A DNA stretch of 64,000 nucleotides from a virus. The notes beneath the pieces are model-generated. The model was given only the letters and a program-made list of their open reading frames with translations, did no database searches and was not told the DNA's origin. Shown here piece after piece: positions 2,663 to 62,017 of this stretch. The first letter of the stretch is position 1, and every line of letters begins with the position of its first letter. The translations under genes were made by a program, and so were the position numbers. The DNA lies in the IMG/VR virus record IMGVR_UViG_3300010885_057925, positions 107,518 to 171,517 of that record; one strand, 5' to 3'.

Positions 2663-2695
2663 TTTCTCTCCTTGATTGATTATCACATAAGAGAG

Positions 2696-5824: not shown

Positions 5825-5838
5825 GTTCTCTCTCTTTT

Positions 5839-8375: not shown

Positions 8376-8394
8376 GAGCTTAACCTTTTCAGCA

Positions 8395-9246: not shown

Positions 9247-9302
9247 TTCTAGAACTCTCCTTTAATTTTTCTATCGAAAGTTTTCGTTCAAAAACCGTGA
9301 TC

Positions 9303-9770: not shown

Positions 9771-10480
9771 TTTGCGATCCTGAGGTATCGCTGCAGATCT
9801 TCTGGGGTCCCTATCCCATGCATTTTATGAACGTAGAAAGGAATGACGCTCTTGCTGTCTCCTATCATTTCATTGTAGACGGGAGCAATGTAGAACTCGT
9901 TATTAGTTCTGATATTCTTTTCTATCATGTCTTTTGCAGATCTAACGAAATCGGATCCCTTTCTGTACCAGTAAATTCCGCAAGTAGCTACATCAGATAT
10001 TGGATTTTTTTCAGCAACCTCTGACACAAAACCGTCATCCACTTTAACAAAAGACCACTTCGGATGAACCGCGTTAAACGTAAAAACGATTCCATCGACC
10101 GACGTCATCTTTTTTACTGTCATGAAATTTTCCCTGCTAAACTCGATTATTTGATCTGAGTTTGCGATCAAGAGGTCATCGTCGTTGTTAATAAACTCTT
10201 CTGCTAGAAGCGCCGTGCAGGCTGCACCCTCTGTAAGAGAATCTACCTGAACTATTCTGCAGTTGCCGTTAGTCACTCTCTTTAAGAGAGAATGAATTCC
10301 ATCGAACTTAGCAAGATGCTCTTTTCTAACCAGAAATATGTACTCAGCGTCAAAACCTAGATTTTCAATGACAGCCTGTATCATGGGTCTACCATCTACG
10401 TCTATCAGGGGCTTCGGAAACGTGTACCCTTCAATCGAAAACCTTGAACCCTCACCCGCCATCGGAATTAGAACTTTCAT
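9767..10480 (-). CDS. Sugar-phosphate nucleotidyltransferase
   Basis: NTP transferase domain enzyme that makes an NDP-sugar. The N-terminal MAGEGSRF motif, then FPKPLIDVDGRPMI, and the metal-binding Asp in NSDQI are visible. 237 residues, typical of the single-domain group found in capsule loci. It overlaps the HAD phosphatase gene upstream, consistent with a sugar-phosphate handling pair. Confidence 0.88.
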   Translation of the reverse strand: MKVLIPMAGEGSRFSIEGYTFPKPLIDVDGRPMIQAVIENLGFDAEYIFLVRKEHLAKFDGIHSLLKRVTNGNCRIVQVDSLTEGAACTALLAEEFINNDDDLLIANSDQIIEFSRENFMTVKKMTSVDGIVFTFNAVHPKWSFVKVDDGFVSEVAEKNPISDVATCGIYWYRKGSDFVRSAKDMIEKNIRTNNEFYIAPVYNEMIGDSKSVIPFYVHKMHGIGTPEDLQRYLRIAK

Positions 10481-11105
10481 CTATAAACTCCAAGTAATTT
10501 CTAAGATTCACATCTTCGAACCCCTTAACTGCCCAGAGGTATCTGGCAAGAGATTTCTTTGCAGATTCTATTCCCTTGTCAGAATCTTCTACACAAAGCG
10601 TCTGCTCTGGATCTGAGTTGAGCTCTTTGATTGCGTAATCATAACAATCCGGGAACGGCTTGTTTCTTTTGACGTCTTCGTTGGTAACGATTCTGTCAAA
10701 ATACTCGATTTGACCAGTCGAGTTAAGCATCTTCTCTGCAGTTTGTCTGATCGAGTTGGTCACGCAAGCAATTTTTACTTTATTTTCTTTTAGAAATTGA
10801 AGAAGTTCAATTTTCTTTGGGTCAATCTCTGCGTTTCTTTCGATTATGTCGATCGTGTAATCTTGCTTCAGCTTCCAAATCATTTCTGATTTTTCTCGAT
10901 CTACTCCAAGAATCTCAAGCTTAACTTTGGTAGGGAGTCCGTTGAATTTTGATTCGTGATCCTCTCTTGATATCGTTACTCCAGCAACTTCGTAGAGAGC
11001 TTGATTCAGTGATTTGTAATGCCACTCACACGCATCGACCAAAACTCCATCAAGATCAAATAAAACGCAAGACACGTGCTTGCCGCTTTTTCCAAAATTT
11101 CTCAA
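10452..11105 (-). CDS. HAD-superfamily sugar phosphatase/phosphomutase
   Basis: HAD hydrolase with FDLDGVLVD near residue 16, CVTNS as motif II, and KPFPD and EDSDKGIESA as motifs III/IV: the beta-phosphoglucomutase-like layout with a helical cap. 217 residues, normal size. A TTG start at 11105 with GAGGGG upstream is the best candidate. Presumably dephosphorylates or isomerises a sugar phosphate feeding the neighbouring nucleotidyltransferase. Confidence 0.83.
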   Translation of the reverse strand: MRNFGKSGKHVSCVLFDLDGVLVDACEWHYKSLNQALYEVAGVTISREDHESKFNGLPTKVKLEILGVDREKSEMIWKLKQDYTIDIIERNAEIDPKKIELLQFLKENKVKIACVTNSIRQTAEKMLNSTGQIEYFDRIVTNEDVKRNKPFPDCYDYAIKELNSDPEQTLCVEDSDKGIESAKKSLARYLWAVKGFEDVNLRNYLEFIDESSNSDGG

Positions 11106-11146
11106 ACTTACCCCTCTTTTATCGTTAGAAGATTAGACTGTCGTTG

Positions 11147-11794
11147 CTATCTCAAAGTAAACACTTTGTCCTCGACCCATGGTTTATCAAACGTTCTTCT
11201 CAAAAGAACAGTGTAGTCGAATCTACTAACTTTTGATCTGAAACTTGACATATGGTATCGTAGCATCGTCTCAGGATGACAAGGAACTCCCGCCGCTGAG
11301 TACTCGTTTATCTTATCATAAAGAGCGCAGTAGTGATTCATATTCTCATATGACGAGAAACAAAGCATGTCAAAAAGACCGCCTCTCCAGTCTCCTCCCT
11401 GAGGTATCCAGAGAGAACTCGGATCGAATTCGTTGATCTTCAGCGGACTGCAATACTTCACGTCGAACCTAGTCTTTAGGACAACATCGTAATCTCCTTC
11501 GATTATGTCAAAAGACTTTTTGATGTTCTTCCACATCGCAAACACTGCAGCGGGATCAGTCTCAGGCGGCTTATTGTAGAAGCAAGAGTCTGATATCTTG
11601 CTCACGTTCTGATCTTTTGAATCTATGATTGTCTTTTTTGGATTGAAAAGCTTCACTGCTTCAGCGACTCTCTCTTCTTCATAAGCATGAAAGAATATGT
11701 CGCAGTCGTTGTAATTTAGTATGTTGCTTTCTAGAGACGGATAGCATTCATCAAAATTTCTAACGTCCCCGCTCAGTATTATCGCAACTTTCAT
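11147..11794 (-). CDS. Glycosyltransferase-like protein, capsule type
   Basis: 215-residue protein starting with IILSGDVRNFD and containing VVLKTRFDVKY, a DxD-like block found in a poorly characterised glycosyltransferase-like group of capsule clusters. It overlaps the next gene by 4 nt in the operon. The acceptor and donor are unknown; assignment rests on the motif and the context of six consecutive transferase-like genes. Confidence 0.55.
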   Translation of the reverse strand: MKVAIILSGDVRNFDECYPSLESNILNYNDCDIFFHAYEEERVAEAVKLFNPKKTIIDSKDQNVSKISDSCFYNKPPETDPAAVFAMWKNIKKSFDIIEGDYDVVLKTRFDVKYCSPLKINEFDPSSLWIPQGGDWRGGLFDMLCFSSYENMNHYCALYDKINEYSAAGVPCHPETMLRYHMSSFRSKVSRFDYTVLLRRTFDKPWVEDKVFTLR

Positions 11795-12615
11795 AGCTTG
11801 TTCTCGAACTTAGGCATAAGATCAAAGAAAAGCTCCATGTTTTCATTAGCTTCAAACGGTCTAATGGAGTGATATTCGCTCAGCTCTCCAGATCTAACAG
11901 CTTGCATCAACTCATCGCACACTCTGATTCTGCCGATCGATCTGTCGATTCTTCTAGAACCCCATTCGTTGTGAAAGTTAGTGACAAGTTCTATCTTAGC
12001 TCCGGGTTCATCTCTTAACTTTTTTCTAATCAAAGAGCTAGAATAAGCTTCGTCGATGCCCCAGAGACTCATACCTTCTCTAAAGTTTGGAAGATTGACT
12101 CTCCAATCGTAGATCTTATGAAGCTCATCAGACCAGTTTTCGTTGATTTCGTGAATTGACTTGAATTGAGAACCAAAACCCACGTGATGTGAGGATGGAA
12201 AATCAGCCCCAGGATGATTATATCCGTCGGAGAAACCTACAACGTATTTTCCATCTCTCAAAAACGCCTTGATCATTTTAAAGAATCTATCACCCAAAGG
12301 TATCTGATCTATTCCCGAGATCATACATCTGTCATTTTCAAATCTAGAAGCACCGTAGTACGCGCCCCAAGTGCACGTCCAATCTCTCTGCTCAATCAAT
12401 ATGTCTGGAGATCTTTCTAAAAGAAAGATTTCTCCATGGTCGTCCGATAGCTTCTTTAGTTTTCTGAGCTCGTCGAACTCTTCTTGATTACCAGAGAAAA
12501 ATAGCGTTGGGACAGTGTTAAACTTCTCATGATATACTTTCGATACAAAATTCCAGAAGCCTAAGTAATCAGAATTGTTTGTCAACGAAAAGATGACTCT
12601 ATCAACTATTCTCAT
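11791..12615 (-). CDS. Putative glycosyltransferase, family not recognised
   Basis: 274 residues with no confident family match by eye. It shares the operon and the 4-nt and 14-nt overlaps with recognised transferases. An internal DRCMISGIDQIPLGDRFF stretch resembles GT-A type donor-binding regions, with an acidic pair in a beta-strand context. No signal peptide or membrane segment. Function is inferred from context only. Confidence 0.45.
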   Translation of the reverse strand: MRIVDRVIFSLTNNSDYLGFWNFVSKVYHEKFNTVPTLFFSGNQEEFDELRKLKKLSDDHGEIFLLERSPDILIEQRDWTCTWGAYYGASRFENDRCMISGIDQIPLGDRFFKMIKAFLRDGKYVVGFSDGYNHPGADFPSSHHVGFGSQFKSIHEINENWSDELHKIYDWRVNLPNFREGMSLWGIDEAYSSSLIRKKLRDEPGAKIELVTNFHNEWGSRRIDRSIGRIRVCDELMQAVRSGELSEYHSIRPFEANENMELFFDLMPKFENKL

Positions 12616-13297
12616 TTTTATCTCGCAAAGAATGGATTCTTCTCATCATCTCTGGATTCATATAATGAAAAGTTATCTTTTCGTCGGTTCCGAATGAATC
12701 GATATTTCCAGTGCAAAACTTTTCTGTGTGAATGAACCTGCACTCTCCTGAGTTTCTGAACCAGAATCCTATCGATATGTCGCTGTTATAAGCTGTTGGG
12801 AAATCTTTGGTATCTAGAAGGTATTTCTTGATGGCAGTAAAACACTCTCTAGTCATCACAAACCCTGCTCCTCCGCTGGGATATGTCACCGGTAAGCTGC
12901 AGTCTCTACCTCTCAAACTTTGAAGGGGCATTCCTTGCTCAAGAGCATGATTCTCAGAGTAGTCATAGAAAACGTGGCCAAGACAAGCTTTTTCATTGGG
13001 AGAAATTTTAAGCGACTTGATCTCTGCTTTTAACGAGCTAATATCAACGTAGGTGTCATCATCGCTGATCATAATGAAATCAAAGTCATCAAAATTCTCT
13101 AGAGACATCACGAAATAAGCTAACTTAAAAGGAACATACACGTAACCGGTAGGAAGAGTAGAGAAAGAAACCATATCGTTTCCTTCGCTGTCACCCACGA
13201 AGATGTATGCATCAGAATTTTTAGCGTAAGTTTCTCTAATCGCATCTTGAAGTGATCTGTTCTTATCACATGTTATGATTGCATTTAGAATCTTCAA
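12602..13297 (-). CDS. Fringe/GT31-like glycosyltransferase
   Basis: 231 residues. It has an ISDDDTYVD segment (DDD at 79-81, metal and nucleotide-sugar binding), then PSGGAGFVMTRE and SDISIGFWF, matching in order the signature blocks of Fringe and core-1 beta-1,3-galactosyltransferases. Fringe-like enzymes are mostly eukaryotic, so this is an unusual gene in a phage operon. No membrane anchor is present, unlike the Golgi enzymes. It likely adds a hexose in beta-1,3 linkage; the acceptor is unknown. Confidence 0.78.
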   Translation of the reverse strand: MKILNAIITCDKNRSLQDAIRETYAKNSDAYIFVGDSEGNDMVSFSTLPTGYVYVPFKLAYFVMSLENFDDFDFIMISDDDTYVDISSLKAEIKSLKISPNEKACLGHVFYDYSENHALEQGMPLQSLRGRDCSLPVTYPSGGAGFVMTRECFTAIKKYLLDTKDFPTAYNSDISIGFWFRNSGECRFIHTEKFCTGNIDSFGTDEKITFHYMNPEMMRRIHSLRDKNENS

Positions 13298-14166
13298 ATT
13301 GCACGTCCTTCCGTCAAGATGTATAAGAGATGCTTAGATCTTACATCATAGCTATGATAATTTTCAGACCTTGCGCGACCAAGATGAGCTATTTTCTCTC
13401 TTTCAGCATCGTTTCTGGTGAAATGATCTATTAGAGCCATGAGCTCGTCTGCGTTATGATAGACGACAATCTCCTCATTAATCTTGAAGAGTCTTTCGAT
13501 ATTAGGCGTGTAATTTGTGAGCAGCATCGCTCCAGAACCTGTAGCCTCAAAAGTTCTGAAGTTCACGTCGTCAGCGATGTTTATGTTGAAAGCTATCTTG
13601 TAGCTTGACAGAGCTCGCACCATATCGTTTCCAATCACGAATATGTCGCGCTTCAAATTAAACTTTGACGATATCAGATTAAGCCAATTCTCTCTGTTGC
13701 CGATGAGAGAGCCGCAAAACCCAACGTCAACGTTTCTTTCAACGCTAGAGTCAGGCTTTATCAAATCAGAAGGATACCCATTCGGAAACCAGACAGCTGA
13801 GCTGACCAAACCTCTGAAGTGATCGATGTGCTGTATGTTGGACATCAAGAGAATGTCGAACTTGTGCTTGAGGCAATGAGCTTGATGATTCTGAAGAGAG
13901 CAATGAGAATCGATGCTCCAGAACAATTTCTTTCCCTTGAACTTTGAGATGTCTGGATGCCACCCAGAGTCATAATTCTCAAGGCTTAGCAGGGCATCAC
14001 AATCTCTGGATATCTCGTCGAAAGGGACGGAAAAATTATTGTAATTCAACCCCCAAACGACAGCTTCATGACCGGCTCGCTCAATTCCTCGCTTAAGGCA
14101 CAGAGCCTCTCTGAACTCTCTATTTCCTTCGTTTCTTCCGCGTTCCTGTATCAGTAAGATCTTCAT
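13294..14166 (-). CDS. GT-B glycosyltransferase, CgeB-like
   Basis: 290 residues. The C-terminal part has NINIADDVNFRTFEATGSGA followed by LLTNYTPNIERLF, the donor-binding E-x7-E-like block of the CgeB/GT1-type family, and a FPNGYP segment in the middle. It is compact because the N-terminal Rossmann domain is short. Overlaps both neighbours by 4 nt. Confidence 0.75.
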   Translation of the reverse strand: MKILLIQERGRNEGNREFREALCLKRGIERAGHEAVVWGLNYNNFSVPFDEISRDCDALLSLENYDSGWHPDISKFKGKKLFWSIDSHCSLQNHQAHCLKHKFDILLMSNIQHIDHFRGLVSSAVWFPNGYPSDLIKPDSSVERNVDVGFCGSLIGNRENWLNLISSKFNLKRDIFVIGNDMVRALSSYKIAFNINIADDVNFRTFEATGSGAMLLTNYTPNIERLFKINEEIVVYHNADELMALIDHFTRNDAEREKIAHLGRARSENYHSYDVRSKHLLYILTEGRAI

Positions 14167-14813
14167 ATGACTGCTCTCAACGCTGCTTTTTGCTCTTCAA
14201 CAGCCACATCATTTTCATCGAATGCTAGACCCACAAACTCATCGCTGACGCGTTTGGTCGGAAATTGAATCTTTTGAAAGAACTCATCATGAACAATCGA
14301 GAACTGAGCGACCTTTGGATAGATAATTTCGCGCAAGAAATTTTGATCAACTTGCCAAAAATCTCCCTTCACGTACTCACGAATTAGATCGCTCATGTTA
14401 CTGAGAAGCGGAGCTCTAGCTCCCCACATTCCTCCTAAAATCTCTGTAGCGTGGTGAGGGTGATCACGCATGATATGAAACATCGCGCTGCTTCCGAGCC
14501 ACTGCTTCACTGCAGCTACTTCACGAGCAGTTATCCTGCTATCGCAGTCTCGACTGATCATCACGTCAACGTCAGGGTCTGAGGCTGCCTCGAATCTCCA
14601 GAACATGCCCGTCCAGTCGCCGGGCTTCTTCATATCGATTACGTGTGCTCCACGATCATGAAGACCGCTGATCGTTTCAGAAGGAGTATTAGTACCTACA
14701 TAAAAGCGGGCCTGCCATCCAGGATATAGTTCACTCACAAGCTCAGCGTTCCTAAGAGCTCCGATGTTATACTTTGGGTTATCACCCCATAAAGAGTAAG
14801 AAACTACTCTCAT
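14163..14813 (-). CDS. Glycosyltransferase-like protein with DCD motif
   Basis: 216 residues with a start (SYSLWGDNPKYNIGAL) and an internal SRDCDSRIT block that resemble an uncharacterised family common in capsule and LPS loci. The DCD would be the metal-binding motif of a GT-A fold. It overlaps flanking transferase genes by 4 nt. Precise activity unknown. Confidence 0.6.
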   Translation of the reverse strand: MRVVSYSLWGDNPKYNIGALRNAELVSELYPGWQARFYVGTNTPSETISGLHDRGAHVIDMKKPGDWTGMFWRFEAASDPDVDVMISRDCDSRITAREVAAVKQWLGSSAMFHIMRDHPHHATEILGGMWGARAPLLSNMSDLIREYVKGDFWQVDQNFLREIIYPKVAQFSIVHDEFFQKIQFPTKRVSDEFVGLAFDENDVAVEEQKAALRAVI

Positions 14814-16399
14814 CGATTCAACCCGAACATGTGCTGAGCTCTTTGAGCGAACATCATGTGATCTCTCATCACGTGCTGATTGTTGACTGCGTACGTCATG
14901 TCGATACCCTCCTTCGTATTATCAGGGTGCTCATGGCGGATGATTACATCGTCCACATATGTTTGCTTTCCAAAAGCGAAAGCCACCTGCATAAACTCGT
15001 TATCACAGTAGAACGAGACGTAATCGGGGTGGTAGAGATAGCCGAAACGATCGTAGTATCTCTTTCCTAAAACGATCAGAGTGTTGAGCTTCTGCTTCTG
15101 ATAACCATCGGAGAACCAGATGACACCATCTAGATCAGGGTAGTTCACCTTCATCTGCCGAATTATCTCGAGATCGTAACCCTCTCTTTCTGGAATCATA
15201 TCGTCAGATGCTAGCAGGCAGATATCAAAATCTCGACCAGACATGTCAGCGTTGACAGCTTGAATCTTTGTCTTACTGTTGCCGTAGCAGACCTCAACGT
15301 TTTCGTACGACTCGAATCTTTTTCTGACTTCCTCGTTGTTCATCGTAGAATCGTCAAGATCACATGATACTAAGAACTTGACATTCTTAGATCTGCTAAG
15401 ATTTCTGTAGCTCTCAAGAACTGAGAAAAATTTCTCTGGACGACCGCGGGTTGGAAACTTCACCAGAAGATTGGGCTCTAAGTTTTCACGACCCGATATG
15501 ATATCCAGAGTCCTCTGCCAGAAAACTGCTCTTCTATTGTGGAGCCACCTGAGAATGTTGAGAGGTTCGTACTCAAGCCACGTCTCTCCAACGTGCTGAA
15601 CATTCTCGTTAGATATCACCTGACATCCCAATAACTTAGACTCAGTTACCATTCTATTAGAAACATCAGCTCCGCGTGGTAGACAGACATAACCTTCAGA
15701 GTTAGACATAGCTTCTAAAACTTGATCTGGGCTCATGCTCTTGATCAAGCTGAAGATCTTGTCATTTTCCAGTAACCACTTCTTAGCGTCATCAGTTCCC
15801 TTTATCCACGAGTCGGAGTCAAGAGTCAGCCACCCAGACTTTTTTCTATTTGGAAGAGACTGGATAAGAGGAATAATCTTTTTGAAGAACTCGTCTCCAA
15901 ATACCGCTGAGAGAACAGAGCAGTTTGCATTTTTCAAGCTTGGGAATCTATCGAAGTACCTTTGCATATGCTTCTGAGAGCAAAACCAAACTTGCCGAGC
16001 ATTGAGATAGAACTGCTCAATTAGCTTGCCCCAGGGCTCAGCCTCGCAGCGGCACTCCTCACCGCCCTCTGCCAGATGTCTCTCAACCGATCTCCATCTA
16101 CAGAACTTATAGTCATGCTCAAACACGGAGTAGCTAATTTTAGATAACGAAAAAGCGCTTATAAGAGTTGGATTCAATTGAGAAAAATTACCAAAGACCC
16201 AGTGACAGTTTGGTTGACTCTCTACCATCTCTCTAGTCAGATGAGCTGAGTGAACAGTGGCGAACGGAACAGGAGCTGAGCTATGCAGAGCGTCCATTGA
16301 CAGCTCAGCCCCTCCGACCAGATCTGACAGAAAAAAATCTTGAACAAAGATGATCTTAAACTCAGGCTTCTTTTGCTCTGAAAATGGACTGTTGAACAT
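14810..16399 (-). CDS. Two-domain glycosyltransferase, first gene of the glycan operon
   Basis: 529 residues. The N-terminal half (about 1-300) looks like a GT-B type protein with FVQDFFLSDLVGGAELS. The C-terminal half (about 310-529) has KFPTRGRPEKFFSVLESYRN and LLASDDMIPER, typical of a GT-A glycosyltransferase with a DD metal-binding motif. A fusion of two transferases is the simplest reading. It heads the operon; TATAAT lies about 8 nt upstream of its ATG and is the likely -10 box. Confidence 0.72.
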   Translation of the reverse strand: MFNSPFSEQKKPEFKIIFVQDFFLSDLVGGAELSMDALHSSAPVPFATVHSAHLTREMVESQPNCHWVFGNFSQLNPTLISAFSLSKISYSVFEHDYKFCRWRSVERHLAEGGEECRCEAEPWGKLIEQFYLNARQVWFCSQKHMQRYFDRFPSLKNANCSVLSAVFGDEFFKKIIPLIQSLPNRKKSGWLTLDSDSWIKGTDDAKKWLLENDKIFSLIKSMSPDQVLEAMSNSEGYVCLPRGADVSNRMVTESKLLGCQVISNENVQHVGETWLEYEPLNILRWLHNRRAVFWQRTLDIISGRENLEPNLLVKFPTRGRPEKFFSVLESYRNLSRSKNVKFLVSCDLDDSTMNNEEVRKRFESYENVEVCYGNSKTKIQAVNADMSGRDFDICLLASDDMIPEREGYDLEIIRQMKVNYPDLDGVIWFSDGYQKQKLNTLIVLGKRYYDRFGYLYHPDYVSFYCDNEFMQVAFAFGKQTYVDDVIIRHEHPDNTKEGIDMTYAVNNQHVMRDHMMFAQRAQHMFGLNR

Positions 16400-23566: not shown

Positions 23567-24892
23567 CTAGAGCATCTGGCCTGCAAGAGTAGCAAGCTCT
23601 GAGCGCTCTCCGCGCTCCAAGGTTACATGACAAGTCAGATCGGAAGTCTTTAACTTCTCAACAGCGATGGTGAGACCGTTAGAGTAGCTATCAATGTAGG
23701 GAGTGTCGATCTGATCGATGTCTCCAAGCAGAACAATCTTGCTATTCTTACCAGTTCTCGTGATTATGGTCTTGAGCTCATGAATAGTGGTGTTCTGTGC
23801 TTCGTCAACTATGATGAAAGCCTCGCTGAATGTTCTGCCTCTGATAAAAGCTAGCGGAGCAACGTCGATGTCTCCGCGAGTCCTCATCATCTCAAAATAA
23901 GTCGATTCACCGAAAGCCTGTCTAAAGTTGTCAACAATGGGAGAGAGCCAGGGCGCCATCTTGTCGTTGATATCTCCAGGCAAGAATCCAAGTTCCTTAC
24001 CGACTGGTTCAATCGAGCGAGTGATGATGATTCTCTTGTAATTTTTTTCACTAAATCCCTGCATAGCAGCCGCTAGAGTGAGAAAAGTCTTACCACTTCC
24101 GGCTAGACCAGACAGAGATACAAGAGGAATCTCAGGGTCAAGCAACGCATGAAGCGCAAACTTCTGCTCTTTGCTTCTAGCACTCACACTGTTACACTTG
24201 TAGTTGAGGGGCTTAAGCTTCCCGCTCTTGTGAATCGCTAGAAAAGACTTCTTGGGATCTAGGTCTGATGTCCCATACACGAATTGGTTTGGCTGAAGCT
24301 CTGGCATCCAATCAGAAACTTCAAGTTCTTTTTGAGAATAGAAAGTGTCAACGTCACGATCAGAAAACTCAATCGCTTCCTGACCCGAGAACATCTGACC
24401 GCCTTCCTTCACGCTCTTGACATGATCGCGGTAATAATCCTCCGCTACCAGTCCCAGAGCGTCGCACTTGACTCGAAGGTTGATGTCCTTCGTCACGACC
24501 TTCACTGTGGCCCCTGGGTGACCTGTCTTGAGGCCCAGAGCCACAGCGATGAGTTGGTTATCGCCCTTCTTAAAATCGAGCCCTGAGGGAAGCTGGATGC
24601 CCAACGGACTCAACTCGTTTTCTATACGAACCGTCTGTTCGTTCCCAACATCAACGCCGTTGTGCAGATTACCGGTTGACCTTAATTGATCCAAGTATCG
24701 ATTGACGTACCTAGCTGACGACCCAAGAAGATCTTGACGCTCTTTAAACCTGTCCAGCTCTTCTAGAACGACAAGAGGGAGAACAACGTCATTACCAGGA
24801 AACGAGTGAATGCTCTGCATGTCATGTAAAAGAACCGATGTGTCTATTACAAGAATCTTTCTATTTCCGCGTTTGTCTTGACGAGGCTGCAA
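23567..24892 (-). CDS. phoH: PhoH-family protein with N-terminal PIN domain
   Basis: 441 residues. N-terminal PIN nuclease domain (about 12-150) begins KILVIDTSVLLHD with acidic residues in LEELDRF and TKDINLR. The C-terminal PhoH ATPase has the P-loop GLAGSGKTFLTL, Walker B FIIVDEAQN and GDIDQID. This is the PhoH2 architecture common in bacteria and in large phages; proposed as an RNA helicase-nuclease, role in infection unknown. A TTG start at 24892 has AAAGGAGA upstream. Confidence 0.92.
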   Translation of the reverse strand: MQPRQDKRGNRKILVIDTSVLLHDMQSIHSFPGNDVVLPLVVLEELDRFKERQDLLGSSARYVNRYLDQLRSTGNLHNGVDVGNEQTVRIENELSPLGIQLPSGLDFKKGDNQLIAVALGLKTGHPGATVKVVTKDINLRVKCDALGLVAEDYYRDHVKSVKEGGQMFSGQEAIEFSDRDVDTFYSQKELEVSDWMPELQPNQFVYGTSDLDPKKSFLAIHKSGKLKPLNYKCNSVSARSKEQKFALHALLDPEIPLVSLSGLAGSGKTFLTLAAAMQGFSEKNYKRIIITRSIEPVGKELGFLPGDINDKMAPWLSPIVDNFRQAFGESTYFEMMRTRGDIDVAPLAFIRGRTFSEAFIIVDEAQNTTIHELKTIITRTGKNSKIVLLGDIDQIDTPYIDSYSNGLTIAVEKLKTSDLTCHVTLERGERSELATLAGQML

Positions 24893-25561: not shown

Positions 25562-25774
25562 TTAAGCCTCGCCGTCAGACGTCTTGCGCTGCTTCTCGAT
25601 ATCGACCATCAGCTTCGTAAGAGTTGCGGACTCTTTCTTGAGAAGCCTGAGACCCCTGCGTGCTCTCACACCCGCCGAGACGTTCCCGCGCGCGTTCTTC
25701 TGAACGTCAAGCTCCGTTGACTCGACAAGAGCTTTGATCCTATTCCAGCACTCGTTAATTGCATCGTTAGACAT
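25562..25774 (-). CDS. Small basic helical protein
   Basis: 70 residues, two-helix prediction, with a basic centre KNARGNVSAGVRARRGLRLL that resembles short histone H1-like or nucleoid proteins. Not recognised with certainty. ATG at 25774; followed closely by the SAP-like gene. A DNA- or RNA-binding role is a guess from charge only. Confidence 0.6.
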   Translation of the reverse strand: MSNDAINECWNRIKALVESTELDVQKNARGNVSAGVRARRGLRLLKKESATLTKLMVDIEKQRKTSDGEA

Positions 25775-25785
25775 TTTCTACTCCA

Positions 25786-26025
25786 TTAACCTGTTATGAT
25801 GTTACTAGTTGGAAGTTGCGCTTCATCAAGCGCTTCTTTTGCGGCGTTAGAGATACGAACCAATGCAGCACGATCCTCTAACTCAAGTGACAAAAGACTT
25901 ATGATTTGAAGCATCTGCTTTTGTTTAACGCCAAACTTAAGTATCTCATCGACAATTTGTCTGCTCTTGAGTGACTCAGCAGCCCAAATCTCTGTTTCAG
26001 TTTGTCCGAATTTCTTAGCTTCCAT
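25786..26025 (-). CDS. Hypothetical protein, 79 aa
   Basis: Helical 79-residue protein (EAKKFGQTETEIWAAE start) with no family I recognise. Its start overlaps the stop of the 150-residue protein upstream (TAATG), so it is co-translated. Soluble, no signal. Confidence 0.6.
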   Translation of the reverse strand: MEAKKFGQTETEIWAAESLKSRQIVDEILKFGVKQKQMLQIISLLSLELEDRAALVRISNAAKEALDEAQLPTSNIITG

Positions 26026-26477
26026 TAGAATGCCTCAATTTTAAACCTTTCTTCACCAAGAAAAATAAGTCTTTTTCCATGAAGATCGCCGTCATCGTCC
26101 TCTTCTCTTGTCAAGATAATCCAAGAATCCCACGCTTTACTCAGATAGATCCATTCAGCATGTTCCCAGGTCGAGATGTCGCTTTGGTAAGAGTCTAAAA
26201 CTTCTGAAAGAGATTTCGGGAGAGACAATCTGATGTCAGATATGCTAGGAAGAGTCTTTGACTCTTCCTTTGTCGTAAGCTCAGATCTGCAGACATCTAC
26301 TACTTTGTGAATGATCCCACAGTTATTGCATTGCGCAAATTTCGGCTGAACAGTGTCAGACTCTTCTTCTAAAATTGAAAACACTGCGAATTTATGAAAA
26401 ACGGGATCACGACTCTCTTTGAATTGCGGAAGTATGCAATGACATTGAATCAGATGTTTTATTCCGCTTAGTGGCAT
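26025..26477 (-). CDS. Hypothetical protein with CxC and CxxC, possible zinc site
   Basis: 150 residues. CHC near residue 12-14 and CNNCGIIHKV near residue 51 could form a zinc ribbon. The rest (ISTWEHAEWIYLSKAWDSW) is aromatic-rich. No family recognised. Located in a run of small replication- or regulation-like phage genes. Confidence 0.6.
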   Translation of the reverse strand: MPLSGIKHLIQCHCILPQFKESRDPVFHKFAVFSILEEESDTVQPKFAQCNNCGIIHKVVDVCRSELTTKEESKTLPSISDIRLSLPKSLSEVLDSYQSDISTWEHAEWIYLSKAWDSWIILTREEDDDGDLHGKRLIFLGEERFKIEAF

Positions 26478-26762
26478 CTATCGTCCGAACAGACTCGTCT
26501 TCTTCACTGTCGCGTCAACTTCAATAGTTCCATGATTGCGATTAGCATTTACATGCTTGTTCGCGACAGACACGTATTGGTTAACACCGTTGTACGCCAC
26601 ACCCTCTACAGTCATCGAAGCAACCGCAATGACTCTTCTGATCTGATCATCAGTCAGCTTTAGCTCGCTTCTAAGAACTGAAGTTAACGCAACTGCAAGA
26701 TTGTCATTGATTGCGCCGACAACGTCGTTCGTAACTCTTCCCATGTCACTTTCTAAGCTCAA
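26478..26762 (-). CDS. Hypothetical protein, 94 aa
   Basis: 94 residues with a helical first half and a beta-prone second half; no recognised domain. A TTG start at 26762 is chosen because AAGGAGG lies five bases upstream, one of the strongest ribosome-binding sites in the window; the next ATG is inside the first helix. Confidence 0.6.
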   Translation of the reverse strand: MSLESDMGRVTNDVVGAINDNLAVALTSVLRSELKLTDDQIRRVIAVASMTVEGVAYNGVNQYVSVANKHVNANRNHGTIEVDATVKKTSLFGR

Positions 26763-26809: not shown

Positions 26810-27253
26810 TCAACGTGTGAATTTATCAGCTATTGTCGTAGACGCCCAGGCGTCAGGTTTGATAGTAGGCTCGTATCCCATTCCGCTGATGTATGATTTC
26901 GCTGCTTTGGCGAGTCTAGCAGATCTACTGTCAGGATCAGATGCAATGTCAGCGTGAATATTAACGTGGATATTCGGTCGTTGAGATTTGATTAGCTCTG
27001 CAGTCATAACAGATTCGTAAACTTCATGCATCAGTCTATCTTCTAAAGATTTGAAAGAAGAGCGGTTAAATTTATTCTTCTTGTAGAAGAACTTTCCCCC
27101 TCGACCCTCCCAATAAACGCAGATAGCTGTGGCCAGTTGCCACTGTCCAGCCACAAGCTGTGAATCTGTTCCAACAAAAACTTTTGATTCAACACTTATT
27201 TCGGAAATAACGTCATCTATGCTGTGATGTTTGCCGTCTGGGCTTATCCACAT
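26810..27253 (-). CDS. YkuK/DUF458-like RNase H-fold protein
   Basis: 147 residues. VFVGTDSQLVAGQW in the first third matches the first catalytic strand of the YkuK-type RNase H-like family (Asp followed by Ser-Gln), and NIHADIASDPDS later could supply further metal ligands. Nuclease activity is inferred, not established. RBS AGAGGATAA precedes the ATG, which overlaps the chaperonin-like gene. Confidence 0.65.
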   Translation of the reverse strand: MWISPDGKHHSIDDVISEISVESKVFVGTDSQLVAGQWQLATAICVYWEGRGGKFFYKKNKFNRSSFKSLEDRLMHEVYESVMTAELIKSQRPNIHVNIHADIASDPDSRSARLAKAAKSYISGMGYEPTIKPDAWASTTIADKFTR

Positions 27254-28476
27254 AGTTTATCCTCTGTTAAGATAGCGCCGTTTTTAGATAGCACCTGCAA
27301 GAATGAATCACTAGCTTTTTTTCCAGCCTCAATAGATGAAAACGGATACACACCGTTGTGAAAGTTGCAAACTCCACTTTTCAAAGAAGCGACGCTGTAC
27401 CTAATGCAATAGTCGATTCTGTCTCTTGACGTTCCGGCAAACGACTTGTTGTCTTTTCCTACTCTGATTGTAAGAGCGCCGGCTCCTAGAGAAGAAATTC
27501 TTTTTCTTAAGATTTCTTCCTCAGCAGAAGATGAGCTCTTTATTCTCTCAGAAAGATAAGAAACAACCTTGGACATATTGTTTTTCAAGCTTTCAAGTTC
27601 AACAAAGTTGACAAATGCTGTTGCTTTTTCAATCTTTGGACACTGCGACAAGTCTACGCTTGAAATCAGCTCTCCCTTTAAAGATGAAACAACATCTGTC
27701 CCAAATCCAGTAGCAAGATCTACCAAAGCGTTGCAGCCAACTTCGTCGTACGGTACCTCAATAGGAATAACCTGAGCTGTGTTTCTTTGAAAATTAACTG
27801 CAGATGTTGTGACAACGTCGTTAGAGAATCCACGAGCAAAAATAAGATACGGAGTCAAATTTTCATTTGAATCTTGAAAAATTTTGTGACACTCAGAAAC
27901 GCTCTCTATGATTCCGTCTATAAAAACTAGCTTGGGATAATTAACCGAGGCTTTACTCGACTTGAGAGATGAAAAAAAGTCAATTGAAGGGTGCCATGAG
28001 CACTGCTGAGAACCAAAAACAATCTCAGTTTTTGTTGAGTCAGATTTGTCAAGAACGATTTTTCCGTCTCGGCCTGCTCGCTTGAGACTCTCTATTACAA
28101 CTTTTGCCGATTTCTCGTCAGAAGCAGATGACATAGATTTTTCAAGCTCTAATAAAGAAAACCTTCTGTTTTTAATAGATTCTATGAAAGAGTTCTTGTC
28201 TTTTAAGCTTAAAAATTTAAGCATGACAAACGAACCACCCGCAGACGTAGACTCGGCGTCCACCATACACCTCAGAAGCATATTCTTAAGAGGCCCAGTA
28301 CTTAAAACTTGCGATGCAATTCTAAGGCAGTCCGACTTCGAAGCAACGTAAGAAGAGTCATTCAGGTTAACAAACAACTTACCATTCTCAAGATCGCTGA
28401 CTAGCGTCGAGATTTCAGAAAAAAGCTGCGCGGCTTCACGTCGCGCAGCTTCTGATGTTTTAAGAGTTACCTTCAC
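27244..28476 (-). CDS. Degenerate GroEL-like (chaperonin) protein
   Basis: 410 residues. Segments align in order with GroEL: LKNMLLRC to GGSFVML where GroEL has the GDGTT ATPase helix; SLKRAGRDGKIVLDKS where GroEL has the helix leading into the apical domain; KLVFIDGIIESVSECHKIF and PYLIFARGFSNDVV as in the apical domain; and LRKRISSLGAGALTIRVG plus RIDYCIRYSVASLKSGV as in the C-terminal equatorial region. The nucleotide-binding motifs (GPKGRNV and GDGTT) are not conserved, and it is about 130 residues shorter. A GTG start at 28476 lacks a clear ribosome-binding site. Probably non-ATPase; adapter or structural role unknown. Confidence 0.6.
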   Translation of the reverse strand: MKVTLKTSEAARREAAQLFSEISTLVSDLENGKLFVNLNDSSYVASKSDCLRIASQVLSTGPLKNMLLRCMVDAESTSAGGSFVMLKFLSLKDKNSFIESIKNRRFSLLELEKSMSSASDEKSAKVVIESLKRAGRDGKIVLDKSDSTKTEIVFGSQQCSWHPSIDFFSSLKSSKASVNYPKLVFIDGIIESVSECHKIFQDSNENLTPYLIFARGFSNDVVTTSAVNFQRNTAQVIPIEVPYDEVGCNALVDLATGFGTDVVSSLKGELISSVDLSQCPKIEKATAFVNFVELESLKNNMSKVVSYLSERIKSSSSAEEEILRKRISSLGAGALTIRVGKDNKSFAGTSRDRIDYCIRYSVASLKSGVCNFHNGVYPFSSIEAGKKASDSFLQVLSKNGAILTEDKLCG

Positions 28477-28825: not shown

Positions 28826-30688
28826 TTAACCGTATTCTTTGACCATTGTTTCGACCATGTCTGAGTACTTCTTCTGCTGCTCATTGTCACGGCTCTTAGA
28901 TTTAGTGACAATACGCGCCATGTCCTTGACTGAAGCGATGAGATAACCCTCAATAGCTTCCTTGAGTGGCTCGTAAGACTTGTAGTCAACTTTCTGGCCG
29001 CGACGCATCTTGGCAAACATGAAAGCTGTCACATCAGCCCTGAAACCGTCACGCGCAGAGCCTGTGATTCCGATCTGCTCTTCGATAGACTGCAGGAACC
29101 TCTCGTCTGGGGCGCGATCTTCTGAGGTAACACGATCCTTCAACTTCTGCTTTGTCGTGTAAGCCTCAGCGTTGTCCATGTAGTTATCGAACAGTGACTG
29201 CGCTTGCTCTGAGTACGCCGTGACGAATGCCTTGGCAATCTCACCTTCGAGGATCTTGAGGTACTCCTCACGGATTGTCTTCTGGAGGATCTCGAGGTAG
29301 ACTTTCTTCTTGTCTTCGTCAACAATCTGCTCTTTCACTTGCTTGATAAGAGCTTCAACAACTCGCATGGGCGTGATGAAGCTCTTATCAGAATCGGTTA
29401 GAGCTGAGTCGATCGCCTTGGTAATGAAACGAGTCGAGATGCCGTCCATCCCCTCATGACGTGCTTCCTCACGAAGGTCCTTAATGTCAACTTTCTTAGT
29501 ACGACCCTTCTCAACAACTTCTTGACCGTCGTAGATCTTCATCTTGGTAAGAAGGTCACACTTTTGAGACTGACGAAGGCGGCTCATGACAGAGAACATT
29601 GCTGCAACCTTGATGGTGTGGGGAGCAATGTGGGCCCTGAAGTCAGAGCGACGAAGCATCTTGTCATAGATCTTCATCTCCTGGGTGAGCTCAAGGACGT
29701 AAGGGACCTCAATCTTCACAACACGGTCAAGGATAGCCTCGTTGGTGTGCTCTGACTTGAAACGATTCCACTCGGACTCATTGCAGTGCGAGATGATAAC
29801 ACCATCGAAGTAGAGCATTGAGTTCTTGCCAGGCGTCGGGACCTGCTTCTCCTGTGTCGCTGTGAGGATCGTGTGTAGGAACTCGATCTCGTTCTTAAAG
29901 ATCTCAACAAATTCCACCACGCCACGATTACCGACGTTAAAGGCACCGTTGAGATTGAGGACACGAGGGTCATCCTCGGAGAACTTGTCGAGCTTCGAGA
30001 TATCTTCAGAGCCAACGAGGGCGGAGACATCCTGAGAGTTTGCGTCCATCGGAGGAACAACGGCGATACCACGCCGGGCACGCTGAGAGAAGGAGGAGCG
30101 AACAACCGGGAATTTCTCATATTCACCGTTGAAGTCATTCATCAGCCTGAATCGACAGACTGGGCAAAGATCGCCCTCGATATGAACCCCTAGAACTTCC
30201 TCAAACTGACCACGCAGAGACCTCGGCAGGAGGTGCAAAGGCTCCTCCCTGACCGGACACCCATCTAAATGATAGATGGGCTCTGCGGCCTTCTCAAGTG
30301 CCTTCTTGACACCGTCTGCGAGAGCACTCTTTCCAGATCCGACTGGTCCCATGAGAAGGAGAACCTGACGGCTCTCCTCTCCCTTCAAAGACGCAGACTT
30401 CAGGAATCGCATGAGCTTAGCGATAACTCTTTCGTGACCGTAGAAGTCATCTTTAAAGTAGTTGTAGGTACGAAGCTTATCACTGTCGAAAAGCTTTCTG
30501 CAACGCGGGTCGTTGTCTTCGAGTGATTCAACACCGTATGATTCGATAGCGTCGACAAGACGACGAGCTGCAAGCTTGGTGACCGCCGGGTTTGTCTCAA
30601 CCAACTTCAGGTAATCGATAAACGTACCAGTCCAAGATTCTTTTGCCGACTCTTTACGCTGGTTCTTGATAATCTTAAGGAAATCCAT
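28826..30688 (-). CDS. prkA: PrkA/YeaG serine protein kinase
   Basis: 620 residues, normal for PrkA/YeaG. The N-terminal AAA domain carries Walker A GPVGSGKS at 114-121, the PrkA-specific HLDGCPVREEPLHLLP and CPVCRFRL segments, and SMLYFDGVIISHCNESEW. The C-terminal PrkA domain extends past 400. In bacteria PrkA works with YeaH and SpoVR-family proteins in stress and nutrient-limitation responses. Here it is the last of a three-gene set (YeaH, SpoVR, PrkA) on one transcript. RBS CAGGAGAG precedes the ATG. Confidence 0.95.
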   Translation of the reverse strand: MDFLKIIKNQRKESAKESWTGTFIDYLKLVETNPAVTKLAARRLVDAIESYGVESLEDNDPRCRKLFDSDKLRTYNYFKDDFYGHERVIAKLMRFLKSASLKGEESRQVLLLMGPVGSGKSALADGVKKALEKAAEPIYHLDGCPVREEPLHLLPRSLRGQFEEVLGVHIEGDLCPVCRFRLMNDFNGEYEKFPVVRSSFSQRARRGIAVVPPMDANSQDVSALVGSEDISKLDKFSEDDPRVLNLNGAFNVGNRGVVEFVEIFKNEIEFLHTILTATQEKQVPTPGKNSMLYFDGVIISHCNESEWNRFKSEHTNEAILDRVVKIEVPYVLELTQEMKIYDKMLRRSDFRAHIAPHTIKVAAMFSVMSRLRQSQKCDLLTKMKIYDGQEVVEKGRTKKVDIKDLREEARHEGMDGISTRFITKAIDSALTDSDKSFITPMRVVEALIKQVKEQIVDEDKKKVYLEILQKTIREEYLKILEGEIAKAFVTAYSEQAQSLFDNYMDNAEAYTTKQKLKDRVTSEDRAPDERFLQSIEEQIGITGSARDGFRADVTAFMFAKMRRGQKVDYKSYEPLKEAIEGYLIASVKDMARIVTKSKSRDNEQQKKYSDMVETMVKEYG

Positions 30689-30709
30689 CAGAAACTCTCC
30701 TGTATTAAA

Positions 30710-32023
30710 TTATGAGACTTCAAAGGGTTCGTCTTCGAGAATTGTGAACAATTGCACAGGACCCTTCCACAGTTCTTTTATTTTCTTGACGCAATTGTCA
30801 GCGTAATCAAGTTCAAGGTCACGTCCATCATGCTCATGACGTAGAATGAGCGTGTCTTTTTTGACTTCATCAACGTAGATCACGGGTATTGAATTACCTC
30901 CGACACCGTTAATCAGAGTTCTCTTTACATTATCCCAACCGTCTTCGTCAGATATATCTCTGATTGTCCAGTCAGGATTTTTTCCTTTTTCGGGAGCGTA
31001 TGTGAAAAGATTAAGCTCTTCGCCAAGCTCACGATCAAGATACTGCCATAGGAAATTTTCATCAGAGCATGCTTCTCTTGCGATAAAGCACTCATCAATT
31101 CCCTTCTCTCTCTCTATCTTCTTGAAGACCTCAAACCCAAGGTGGTACGGGTTGATGCGACCGGGCCATGGTCTAAGAACAAGGTTGTGACTCTTAAGGA
31201 AGGGAATATGCATCGAGTCTGGAAGCTGGAGGTCATGAACTATCCTGTAGTGCCAGAATGATGCCCACCCCTCGTTCATCACTTTCGTCTTGATTTGAGG
31301 CCAGAAGTACTTCGCTTCATCTCTAATGACAGAGATGATATCGCGCTCCCAAGGCTCTAGATCTCTACAATTCTCAGCTATGAAGCCCAGAACATCGTAT
31401 TCTATCTGCAAAGGTCTCTTGTCAGGATTCAGATTCGCGTACTTTTTAGGATCTTTCTTCTTGAGATCTAGAATTTCATTTCTAATTTCAAAGTCATCAC
31501 GCTTGAATCTAGGCTTTCTATCAACCTGATACTGAAGAACGTGACAAGCGTCTATGACTCTTTCAACGTTTTCTACTCCGATAGAAGGGTCTTCAACGTA
31601 TGACTGGAATCGCTTCTTGGCGTTTCTCAATCTCTGTATGATGTGATCGGGGTCAGTGTCTTTGAAAGTTATATTGTTCTTAAAGAAATCGCTGTGTCCA
31701 ACACAGTGAGCCATGATGAGAACCTGCAGGTACAGCTGATTCTCCTGCATTAGATAAGCAATCGATGGGTTTGAGTTGATGATCAGCTCGTACGGGAGCC
31801 CCTCAGCTCCAGCGTTATACATGAAATGAGTTCTCTCGAACGTCTTTCCGTACGACCAGTGACCGTAATGGCTCGGCATGCCGTGATAAGACATGTGTCC
31901 GATCATCTCTCGATAATCGCATGTCTCATACGAGATTGGGTACCAATCGAGACCGTGACCGCGAGCGATCTCGCAGATCTTTTCGTCCCACTGCTCTAGA
32001 TCTTTGACGCTCCAATCGCTCAT
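30710..32023 (-). CDS. SpoVR/YcgB family protein
   Basis: 437 residues. It contains the family landmarks YPISYETCDYREMIG, YGHWSYGK near residue 55, NSNPSIAYLMQEN, VMNEGWASFWHYR and NPYHLGFEVFKKIE. In E. coli (YcgB) and spore formers the family acts with PrkA and YeaH; biochemical activity unknown. ATG overlaps the YeaH stop by 4 nt; GGAGGTAAGAC supplies the ribosome-binding site. Confidence 0.95.
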   Translation of the reverse strand: MSDWSVKDLEQWDEKICEIARGHGLDWYPISYETCDYREMIGHMSYHGMPSHYGHWSYGKTFERTHFMYNAGAEGLPYELIINSNPSIAYLMQENQLYLQVLIMAHCVGHSDFFKNNITFKDTDPDHIIQRLRNAKKRFQSYVEDPSIGVENVERVIDACHVLQYQVDRKPRFKRDDFEIRNEILDLKKKDPKKYANLNPDKRPLQIEYDVLGFIAENCRDLEPWERDIISVIRDEAKYFWPQIKTKVMNEGWASFWHYRIVHDLQLPDSMHIPFLKSHNLVLRPWPGRINPYHLGFEVFKKIEREKGIDECFIAREACSDENFLWQYLDRELGEELNLFTYAPEKGKNPDWTIRDISDEDGWDNVKRTLINGVGGNSIPVIYVDEVKKDTLILRHEHDGRDLELDYADNCVKKIKELWKGPVQLFTILEDEPFEVS

Positions 32024-33207
32024 GTCTTACCTCCAAATAGCCTGTTGAATGTTGGCCAGATGTCCTGCGCCGACTTGAGCATAGCGACTCTGAATTTCTT
32101 TCCATCATCAATTTTAGAAACTGAGTTCCAAAATGACATAGAGCGATCAGCTTCCCACGCCATACGCTCAGAATCAGGACAAACTTCGCAGTAGCATGTC
32201 ATTTGAGAAATATCAGATAGCTCTCTGAACGCGTCGATCGCAGCGCTGTTGTCCTCCGACCAGTTGTCTCCGTCTGTGCAATGGAACGCGTAGATATTCC
32301 ACGACGAAGGGTGGAAGCGCTTGTTGATGATTTCAAGAGCTAACTTCGGAGCTGAAGAAATATGAGTTCCGCCAGAAGCTCCGCGCTTGAAGAATGAATC
32401 CTCGTCAGTTTCAAAAGCTTCCGTTGTATGACCGATGAAGATTATTTGAATCGATTCGTACTTGTGACGAAGGAACTGGTACAAAAGGAAAAAGAAAGAT
32501 CTAGCGATGAACTTGATGTTAGTCGTCATCGATCCCGAGACGTCCATCATGAAGAATATGACGGCGCTCGTTGCCTCTTTCGGCTTTTCTTTGATGTGAT
32601 GAAAAGAAAGATCATCATCGTGAAATGGAAATACTTCCTCTCCCGTAATCGGATCAATCTCAATATCACCCGATCTCTTCGCTGCTGCCTTACGCTTTAG
32701 ACGATTGATCGTCGATTCACGTTTGTCTAAGCGTGGCATGATTCCATGAGGACGATTACCATGTCTCTTTGTTTTGAACTCTTTGATCTCACGAAGCTTC
32801 TTTTTCTCAAGCTCCGGAAGACCCAAAGAGTCGAACAAGTATGACGCTAGCTCGTCAAGGCTAATCTCAACTTCGTAGAATTCTTCGCCCTTGTCTTTTC
32901 CGGCTTTATTTCCCTGACCCTGCTCTTGTTTTTGTCCTTTTTTCACGACCTGGCCATTCTGAATGTCAGTTCCAGGCGCTGATCCCGCCTGTTTGTTATC
33001 AGCGTTAGGCCCATAGACAAACTGCCATTCTTTGATTCCGCGGACCGGAATCTTTACTTTCTTCTTTCCGTCCTGCCCGATGATTGACTCTTCCGCGACA
33101 ATGTTATGTACACCCTCACGAATTGCCTTTTCAATCTTCTGCTTATGACGAGAACGGTCAGACGCCGAACGATCTGCTGAAGCTTCGTGTTGTTTGAAAG
33201 TAGACAT
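32020..33207 (-). CDS. YeaH/DUF444 family protein with vWA-like domain
   Basis: 395 residues. Starts with the basic DRSASDRSRHKQKIEKAI segment and PVRGIKEWQF, typical of DUF444, followed by a Gln/Gly/Lys-rich linker. Then comes a von Willebrand A-type domain with the MIDAS motif DVSGSM in FFMMDVSGSMTTNIKF and FIGHTTEAFETDEDSFF. In bacteria yeaH is the partner gene of prkA. First of the three-gene set, preceded by the NUDIX gene. Confidence 0.95.
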   Translation of the reverse strand: MSTFKQHEASADRSASDRSRHKQKIEKAIREGVHNIVAEESIIGQDGKKKVKIPVRGIKEWQFVYGPNADNKQAGSAPGTDIQNGQVVKKGQKQEQGQGNKAGKDKGEEFYEVEISLDELASYLFDSLGLPELEKKKLREIKEFKTKRHGNRPHGIMPRLDKRESTINRLKRKAAAKRSGDIEIDPITGEEVFPFHDDDLSFHHIKEKPKEATSAVIFFMMDVSGSMTTNIKFIARSFFFLLYQFLRHKYESIQIIFIGHTTEAFETDEDSFFKRGASGGTHISSAPKLALEIINKRFHPSSWNIYAFHCTDGDNWSEDNSAAIDAFRELSDISQMTCYCEVCPDSERMAWEADRSMSFWNSVSKIDDGKKFRVAMLKSAQDIWPTFNRLFGGKT

Positions 33208-37438: not shown

Positions 37439-37726
37439 TTACTGTTGAGACTCGTCGTTCGCTAAAAGAGAACGATACGCTCTTTCAGCACGATCTCTAG
37501 CCCAGAAAGATGCATCACTCTCTGTCTTGAAACGTCTGCTAGGAGTGCTGAGGTCATCTCTGTCTTTCACTGTTACACTCGCGAAATAACAATCATTGAC
37601 CGGGTCGGCAGTGACAACAACATGAACTCCCGGAAAGTCGCGCCAGTTCATGGTGTCAGGTCTGGGAGATTTTAGATCTCTACCGATCTCTTCTCTAATT
37701 AGATTTCTCAGCAACGAGATCGTCAT
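37439..37726 (-). CDS. Small tagged protein (N-terminal LIREE)
   Basis: 95 residues. Begins MTISLLRNLIREEIGRDL, a member of the tagged set (consensus L-R-x-I-I/V-R-E-E-L). The remainder (GVHVVVTADPVNDCYFASVT) looks like one small alpha/beta domain, not recognised. Its start overlaps the stop of the 53-residue protein upstream (ATGA). Confidence 0.75.
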   Translation of the reverse strand: MTISLLRNLIREEIGRDLKSPRPDTMNWRDFPGVHVVVTADPVNDCYFASVTVKDRDDLSTPSRRFKTESDASFWARDRAERAYRSLLANDESQQ

Positions 37727-43829: not shown

Positions 43830-44402
43830 TTAGGGGCGATTTAATGTCTCCGAAGGATCAACGATAATAATATCATCGAACCCTTCCTCGCGTGTCGGCA
43901 TCTCGAATCGTGCCAGTGTATCCTCGATGATCTTTCTGCTCAGATGCTTGTCATCCAGCTCCGCAGCTCGTTTTTCGACAGACTGCTGGACAAGTTCCTC
44001 CATCCCACGGTAGTCAAAGAACACTGCGATCTTTTCGTAATCGTCCTCACGACCCTGGATCGCTGCGAGAGCTCGACGTCTTGCTTTGGATCCCATGTTT
44101 GTCATATCAACAACGATGTCCTTACTGGAGGCGGAAGCCCCCTTGATATTGTCCTTGTGAAGCCTCTCTATCTCCTTACGATGAGCACCCGCTCTTGGAC
44201 CAGCGATCTCATCGTATTTTAGTCCAAGAGGTTTCCTGACGATGTCGACCACTTTGTCGTAGCTGATGATGTAAGGGTCGGAAACATTCTGCTCAACCCA
44301 ATAGGATTTTCCGACTCCCTGCGGCCCAACAAGCACATAGATCTTGGGACGAGAGAGACTCTCGCGGATAATCTGGCGTAGAAGAGAGATAGACAAGCTC
44401 AT
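43830..44402 (-). CDS. Tagged P-loop nucleotide kinase (polynucleotide kinase-like)
   Basis: About 190 residues from ATG at 44402. N-terminal tag SLLRQIIRESLSRPK, then Walker A VGPQGVGKSYW, then DIVVDMTNM in the place of the PNK lid/base region, and EKIAVFFDYRG. Looks like an AAA_33-type 5'-polynucleotide or small-molecule kinase. Presence of the tag suggests co-packaging with virion proteins. Confidence 0.72.
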   Translation of the reverse strand: MSLSISLLRQIIRESLSRPKIYVLVGPQGVGKSYWVEQNVSDPYIISYDKVVDIVRKPLGLKYDEIAGPRAGAHRKEIERLHKDNIKGASASSKDIVVDMTNMGSKARRRALAAIQGREDDYEKIAVFFDYRGMEELVQQSVEKRAAELDDKHLSRKIIEDTLARFEMPTREEGFDDIIIVDPSETLNRP

Positions 44403-44419
44403 GCCCAATACATATGTTG

Positions 44420-44455
44420 AATCCCAGAGAGGATTCAATCTTCCTCTCTGGGATT
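44420..44455 (-). terminator. Terminator after the acyl-CoA dehydrogenase gene
   Basis: Perfect 14-bp inverted repeat AATCCCAGAGAGGA / TCCTCTCTGGGATT with an eight-base loop, 12 nt downstream of the dehydrogenase stop. No long T-run follows, but its stability and position support termination. Confidence 0.75.
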
Positions 44456-61354: not shown

Positions 61355-61376
61355 CGGGTTCTCCACTCGGCTAACC

Positions 61377-61384: not shown

Positions 61385-61398
61385 CCTGATGAGTCAGT

Positions 61399-61995: not shown

Positions 61996-62017
61996 GAAAC
62001 TACTCTCCAACGGATGA

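Follow-up and report, generated by a model that had tools for sequence, protein, structure and literature searches.

The hallmark of chaperonins is a ring driven by ATP, and a phage gene that resembles groEL without its ATPase motifs raises the question of what the protein is for. We followed up such a gene, pseudo-GroEL, at positions 27244..28476 on the minus strand of the window (the whole 64,000-nucleotide stretch analyzed here). It starts with GTG and encodes 410 aa, matching the size of about 410 residues given in an earlier note. The source record is a 171.5-kb virus with a T4-type prohead protease, and its T4-like terminase has its nearest reference relatives in Microcystis phage Mel-JY01 and Flavobacterium immuto phages, at 40–43% identity. 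The original observation held and proved larger than first described, as the gene belongs to a big family with a fixed genomic address that the earlier note had missed.

Homology to GroEL and predicted fold

In single-sequence searches, pseudo-GroEL matched PHROG 5725 ("chaperonin groEL") over aa 114–369 with an E-value of 6.6e-20, and the top PDB chaperonin chain was found at 3e-13. NCBIfam GroEL models matched down to 6e-17, with scores at about one fifth of the cut-off or lower (54 bits for TIGR02348, where the cut-off is 582), and Pfam PF00118 gave no match. Significant similarity at this level was confined to aa 114–370, corresponding to the intermediate-apical-intermediate part of GroEL. 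A profile of the family extended the phage GroEL match to aa 1–371 (E = 1e-30), and hhalign aligned the family with phage GroEL at 99.9% and E = 2e-32, covering aa 3–371 of the window protein. Together, the PHROG, PDB, NCBIfam and family-profile matches establish that the proposed GroEL homology at this locus is real.

We then compared a predicted structure with GroEL. The AlphaFold2 (AF2) model was built from a family-only alignment of 90 rows with zero canonical GroELs; with a pLDDT of 91.9 and a pTM of 0.77, it superseded an earlier model whose alignment included canonical GroELs (pLDDT 65). Its best 50 PDB matches were GroEL/Hsp60 without exception, with E-values down to 4e-21, and no unrelated fold appeared among the top matches. 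Ten viral structures matched significantly and were chaperonins where named, with AR9 GroEL on top. Against single GroEL structures, TM-scores were near 0.5 with a large rmsd, indicating that the three domains are placed unlike those of any one GroEL state. Chaperonin domains are hinged, and a differing arrangement is to be expected. From the profile alignments and the model, pseudo-GroEL is distantly homologous to GroEL and retains each of the three chaperonin domains.

The profile alignment and the model agree on the order equatorial-intermediate-apical-intermediate-equatorial. On the minus strand, a residual N-terminal equatorial domain (aa 1–100, 28177..28476), from which the GPKGRNV P-loop is absent, is followed by a first intermediate segment (aa 101–151, 28024..28176), the apical domain (aa 152–335, 27472..28023), a second intermediate segment (aa 336–368, 27373..27471) and a C-terminal helix and strand (aa 378–410, 27247..27345) matching GroEL ~496–523 (hhalign P = 1.6e-4). 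The earlier note was therefore right that the segments follow GroEL order, and wrong in placing IRVG-RID in the C-terminal helix: this stretch (aa 337–355) aligns to GroEL ~377–408, in the second intermediate segment, and it is aa 378–408 that align to the last GroEL helix and the C-terminal strand.

The AF2 monomer model also contains an N-terminal strand, a stem-loop hairpin within aa 1–100 (strands 35–38 and 41–44) and the C-terminal helix and strand. In GroEL, these elements build the inter-subunit sheet. The ring-building strands thus appear, in the model, to be retained, making a pseudo-GroEL ring plausible.

Loss of the ATP site and a rebuilt apical face

To examine the ATP site, we compared 53 aligned family members with 71 canonical phage GroELs. 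Positions follow E. coli GroEL numbering, which was verified at D52, D87, D398 and D495. The Mg-binding aspartate D87 was Asp in 0 of 53 members and in all 71 canonical phage GroELs; the window protein has G81. The catalytic D398 was likewise Asp in none of the members, most of which have Tyr (Y356 in the window protein, 27409–27411 by alignment to GroEL), and in 71/71 canonical sequences. The P-loop (LGPKGRNV) is gapped or substituted in family members, GroEL 479–481 are absent, and the ribose/adenine pocket is gone. D495 is retained in 71/71 canonical phage GroELs, bearing out, together with D87 and D398, the earlier statement that known phage chaperonins keep their ATPase residues.

A further change is an internal deletion of about 80 residues, equivalent to GroEL ~413–495, from the nucleotide-binding equatorial half. 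Because the C-terminal 31 residues match GroEL ~496–523, this loss is internal rather than a truncation. At the GDGTT site (aa 75–82, 28231..28254, minus strand), the family carries the motif E-x(3,4)-[S]PG[S/G] instead. GDGTT occurred in 0 of 95 distinct members; as this motif also served as the filter splitting the family from the canonical set, it is D398, the P-loop and the deletion that count as evidence independent of the filter. The family thus lacks the residue set of an ATP-driven group I chaperonin (P-loop, D87, D398 and the D495/N479 pocket). The two motifs originally reported as lost are indeed gone, GPKGRNV by deletion or replacement and GDGTT by replacement (D87 to G81), and a chaperonin fold without nucleotide hydrolysis is supported by sequence, predicted structure and family evidence.

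A nucleotide-driven chaperonin with a rebuilt site, formed by the E75-PGSG loop and D49, would be compatible with the conservation of E75 in 90% of 96 sequences, with a D52 equivalent in 42 of 53 members (D49 in the window protein) and with the glycine-rich loop that replaces GDGTT. With D87, D398 and the entire 413–495 segment absent, we regard it as highly improbable.

The apical domain is the best conserved part within the family, at 1.69 bits against 1.13 bits for the equatorial parts. In phage GroELs, the relation is reversed (equatorial-N 2.75 bits, apical 2.44 bits). Among the 53 members, the hydrophobic apical binding residues Y199, Y203, L234, L259, V263 and V264 were lost and only F204 and L237 kept; the equivalents of Y199 and Y203 are mostly polar, and that of L234 is H in 30, D in 11, N in 8 and E in 4 (H197 in the window protein). 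Beside the altered L234 site, the motif IDG-xIE-xVSExxH (aa 186–197, 27886..27921, minus strand) is strongly conserved across the family. In GroEL, the matching region binds substrate and GroES. Judging from the alignment, the substrate/GroES face has been remodeled into a polar surface, which the family conserves.

These features bear on whether pseudo-GroEL is a natural minichaperone, a holdase that works without ATP as the apical domain of GroEL does on its own. GroEL apical fragments bind substrates in isolation, and such fragments were among our matches; like the minichaperone (GroEL 191–345), pseudo-GroEL has no ATPase and has the apical domain as its best kept part. In contrast to the minichaperone, it has kept equatorial remnants and lost the six hydrophobic substrate residues listed above, with the L234 equivalent H, D, N or E in 53/53 members. 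This makes holdase activity of the minichaperone type very unlikely.

Canonical group I GroEL/Hsp60 proteins, including those of phages EL, OBP, AR9, the immuto phages and Vibrio phages (PHROG 5725), share the three-domain fold and segment order with pseudo-GroEL. They are ~540 aa long, compared with 372–487 aa in the family, which differs further by the missing P-loop, D87, D398 and ~413–495 and by the polar apical face. In the phage EL chaperonin, high conservation is confined to the nucleotide pocket (PMC7185714), precisely the part that the pseudo-GroEL family has lost.

A family in uncultured large phages and its gene block

The family was assembled from two sets of phage loci, 80 anchored on PrkA and 78 newly fetched ones anchored on a neighboring 150-aa gene, with contigs partly shared between the sets. 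It comprises 95 distinct members with a median pairwise identity of 20%. In a maximum-likelihood tree, 30 members formed one clade against 33 canonical GroELs (SH-aLRT 100); the tree has long branches, and this single split is all that we claim from it. Isolated phages in the reference set had canonical GroELs and no family member. A pattern scan of bacterial genomes returned zero relatives, which, for a pattern scan alone, is not proof of absence from bacteria. The family is nameless in Pfam and hidden within the PHROGs entry "chaperonin groEL". A review of 224 jumbo phages places HSP60 and HSP10 in different phage sets and, in the relevant passages, makes no mention of an inactive HSP60 paralogue (PMC7824862), although a mention elsewhere in the literature is possible. 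We conclude that this is a previously undescribed family of at least 95 proteins from uncultured large phages, ancient and widespread in viruses.

The gene is under strong purifying selection. Relative to a sister that is 83% identical (L001), dN/dS was 0.064 overall and below 0.09 in every segment, equatorial remnants and C-terminus included, which identifies pseudo-GroEL as a working gene. On a terminase-related contig (G033), a 27%-identical gene occupies the same slot between prkA and the RNase H-like gene. A decaying groEL pseudogene could account for the lost ATP motifs and reduced length; the low dN/dS, the 95 intact divergent members and the fixed synteny refute this reading, leaving it a negligible chance.

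The neighbors of pseudo-GroEL lie on the same strand. An RNase H-like DUF458 gene (26810..27253; PF04308, 5e-27), which overlaps pseudo-GroEL by 10 bases, is followed by genes for a 94-aa protein (26478..26762), a 150-aa zinc-ribbon-like protein with CHC/CNNC cysteines (26025..26477), a 79-aa protein (25786..26025), a 70-aa Hc1 histone H1-like protein (25562..25774; PF07432, 3.5e-7) and, at the block end, a PhoH-PIN protein (23567..24892). On the other side lie genes for the AAA+ protein PrkA/YeaG (28826..30688), SpoVR/YcgB (30710..32023; PF04293, 3e-119) and the VWA-domain protein DUF444/YeaH (32020..33207; PF04285, 2e-105).

Pseudo-GroEL stood just upstream of the 150-aa gene, and hence of the 150-aa/79-aa/Hc1 block, in 78 of the 78 loci anchored on the 150-aa gene. 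The order pseudo-GroEL-150aa-79aa-Hc1-like is invariant; the Hc1-like gene is a near-constant and the 79-aa gene a constant member, and PhoH is usually added. The RNase H-like and 94-aa genes are often inserted between pseudo-GroEL and the 150-aa gene, the former being a frequent rather than constant neighbor. Relatives of the 150-aa and 79-aa proteins were not found in the isolated phages of the reference set. The 79-aa protein was also considered as a T4 gp33-type coactivator, for which no support was found.

The DUF444-SpoVR-PrkA genes precede the block in most, but not all, family loci, and pseudo-GroEL is directly downstream of prkA in 60 of the 80 PrkA-anchored phage loci. This arrangement could suggest a role within the PrkA-SpoVR-DUF444 (YeaG-YcgB-YeaH) stress system, for example as an adaptor of the AAA+ protein PrkA. 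However, PrkA was missing from the entire contig in 19 of the 78 loci anchored on the 150-aa gene, contigs of 324 kb and 369 kb included, and in three phages (G063, G084 and G087) the PrkA and pseudo-GroEL modules occupy separate loci. Among fetched loci, the PrkA module of Thermus phages and of huge reference phages comes without a family member. PrkA is thus often a neighbor but not a required partner; the functional link suggested by the 60 loci was rejected, an obligate role in this system is largely refuted, and any such role appears quite improbable.

The block itself offers the best alternative to a GroEL partnership: a free-standing chaperonin-fold scaffold or adaptor, independent of GroEL, that would serve the 150-aa/79-aa/Hc1/PhoH block through its apical surface, in tasks such as nucleoid, transcription or nucleic-acid handling. 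The linkage in all 78 loci, its persistence in phages whose PrkA is elsewhere, the concentration of conservation in the apical domain and the polar rather than hydrophobic apical face are consistent with this proposal. On the other hand, the fixed order may be inherited core synteny and not function, and we consider the scaffold somewhat unlikely, though worth serious attention.

Several further features of these genomes are recorded here. The DUF444(YeaH)-SpoVR(YcgB)-PrkA(YeaG) arrangement (window 28826–33207 and loci L177–L256) is a common phage module: a PrkA relative is encoded in 231 IMG/VR stretches, and the module also occurs in Thermus phages phiYS40, phiLo and Lalka27b and in ~600-kb phages. 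The window prkA (28826) stops 21 codons early at an in-frame TAA relative to L001 and L171, in which the last 21 PrkA residues are conserved, indicating a truncation or a sequencing error. By eye, about 10 proteins of the window, and several from other parts of the genome, have a similar N-terminal helix, "LRxIIREEL", after which their sequences are unrelated, resembling a common tag for targeting or packaging (window 37439–37726, 43830–44438, 55863–56237, 60599–63824 and others; L089, L092). Positions 810–16399 hold, also by eye, ~15 kb of apparent nucleotide-sugar epimerase, glycosyltransferase and related surface-sugar genes.

Co-occurrence with canonical GroEL and possible roles

In all 12 contigs of 230 kb or more from the two anchored sets (G054, G065, G081, G084, G087, G093, G104, G109, G111, G112, G114 and G117), canonical GroEL and pseudo-GroEL occurred together, and both were also present in G049 (176 kb) and G063 (205 kb). 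The canonical gene of G047 is interrupted by the contig end, and G061 (211 kb) had canonical GroEL only. Several PrkA phages had at first seemed to be canonical-GroEL-only, which was rejected when a profile search located pseudo-GroEL elsewhere in three of them. Canonical GroEL was not detected in the window's own 171.5-kb record, possibly a fragment, or in the pseudo-GroEL contigs G033 (132 kb), G056 (123 kb) and G095 (142 kb), which may be fragments as well; most contigs in the analysis are incomplete. The two genes do not adjoin each other. The co-occurring phages are related and not independent samples, and the pattern may reflect shared ancestry. In one 237-kb contig, the pseudo-GroEL match (G065:C1:217454-218659) crosses one TAG, for which stop-codon reassignment or a late stop is possible.

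With PF00166 (E ≤ 0.001), no GroES was found in contigs carrying both GroELs, although gp31-type lids might escape this model. GroES was present in four canonical-GroEL phages without pseudo-GroEL, so that the comparison was 0 of 11 with pseudo-GroEL against 4 of 7 without (Fisher 0.011, phylogeny uncorrected).

The earlier note suggested that the protein might be a poison, a subunit that would join host GroEL assemblies and stall their cycle. A chaperonin fold that has lost its ATP site but apparently kept the ring-building elements would suit such a role. Nevertheless, family members are only ~20% identical to one another, against conserved interfaces in host GroEL; T4-like phages as a rule depend on GroEL, and the large carrier genomes encode a GroEL of their own that a poison would risk hitting. 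We found no specific support for it, as the gene travels with a fixed phage block and the phage's canonical GroEL, and we consider it unlikely. The other roles named in the note, an adapter or a structural ring, may still apply.

The reading that we favor, tentatively and at somewhat less than even confidence, is that pseudo-GroEL is an ATPase-dead, internally shortened GroEL paralogue that acts, without hydrolyzing ATP, together with the canonical GroEL of its phage. Its place would be within or on the ring of that GroEL, and its apical face would recruit a particular phage client or assembly intermediate; alternatively, it may stand in for GroES, which these phages do not recognizably encode. 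Conservation is lowest in the equatorial parts, contrary to what a ring interface adapted to canonical GroEL would lead one to expect. The more specific proposal of a two-component phage chaperonin, with a catalytic GroEL and an ATPase-dead, client-specialized pseudo-GroEL in mixed rings, or with pseudo-GroEL as the alternative to a GroES lid, is a possibility to which we give rather less weight.

Known systems offer partial parallels. BBS6 and BBS12 are chaperonin-like proteins with a degenerate ATP motif that connect a client to canonical CCT (PMC5534436). They combine fold and motif loss in the same way as pseudo-GroEL, and a GroEL partner would work alike, making them perhaps the closest working parallel for a non-catalytic subunit or adaptor. 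They differ in being eukaryotic, derived from group II CCT and equipped with insertions, and the parallel does not place pseudo-GroEL in their group by sequence. Chlamydial GroEL2 and GroEL3 (NF038370 and NF038369) are likewise divergent extra GroELs beside a canonical one; these are bacterial and longer, with profiles of 506 and 533 positions. With the GroEL3 model, the window protein gave a match of 1.7e-15, which falls short of the family cut-off and does not surpass the match to ordinary GroEL.

The presence of canonical GroEL without recognizable GroES in these phages makes lid-less phage chaperonin action directly testable. If the two-component proposal is true, phage GroEL and pseudo-GroEL would form a viral group I chaperonin that is hetero-oligomeric, a functional counterpart of BBS6/12 with CCT. 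More broadly, a viral family that has kept the fold, dropped the engine and, as the alignments suggest, rebuilt the client-binding face indicates that the chaperonin scaffold may be reusable as a non-catalytic part.
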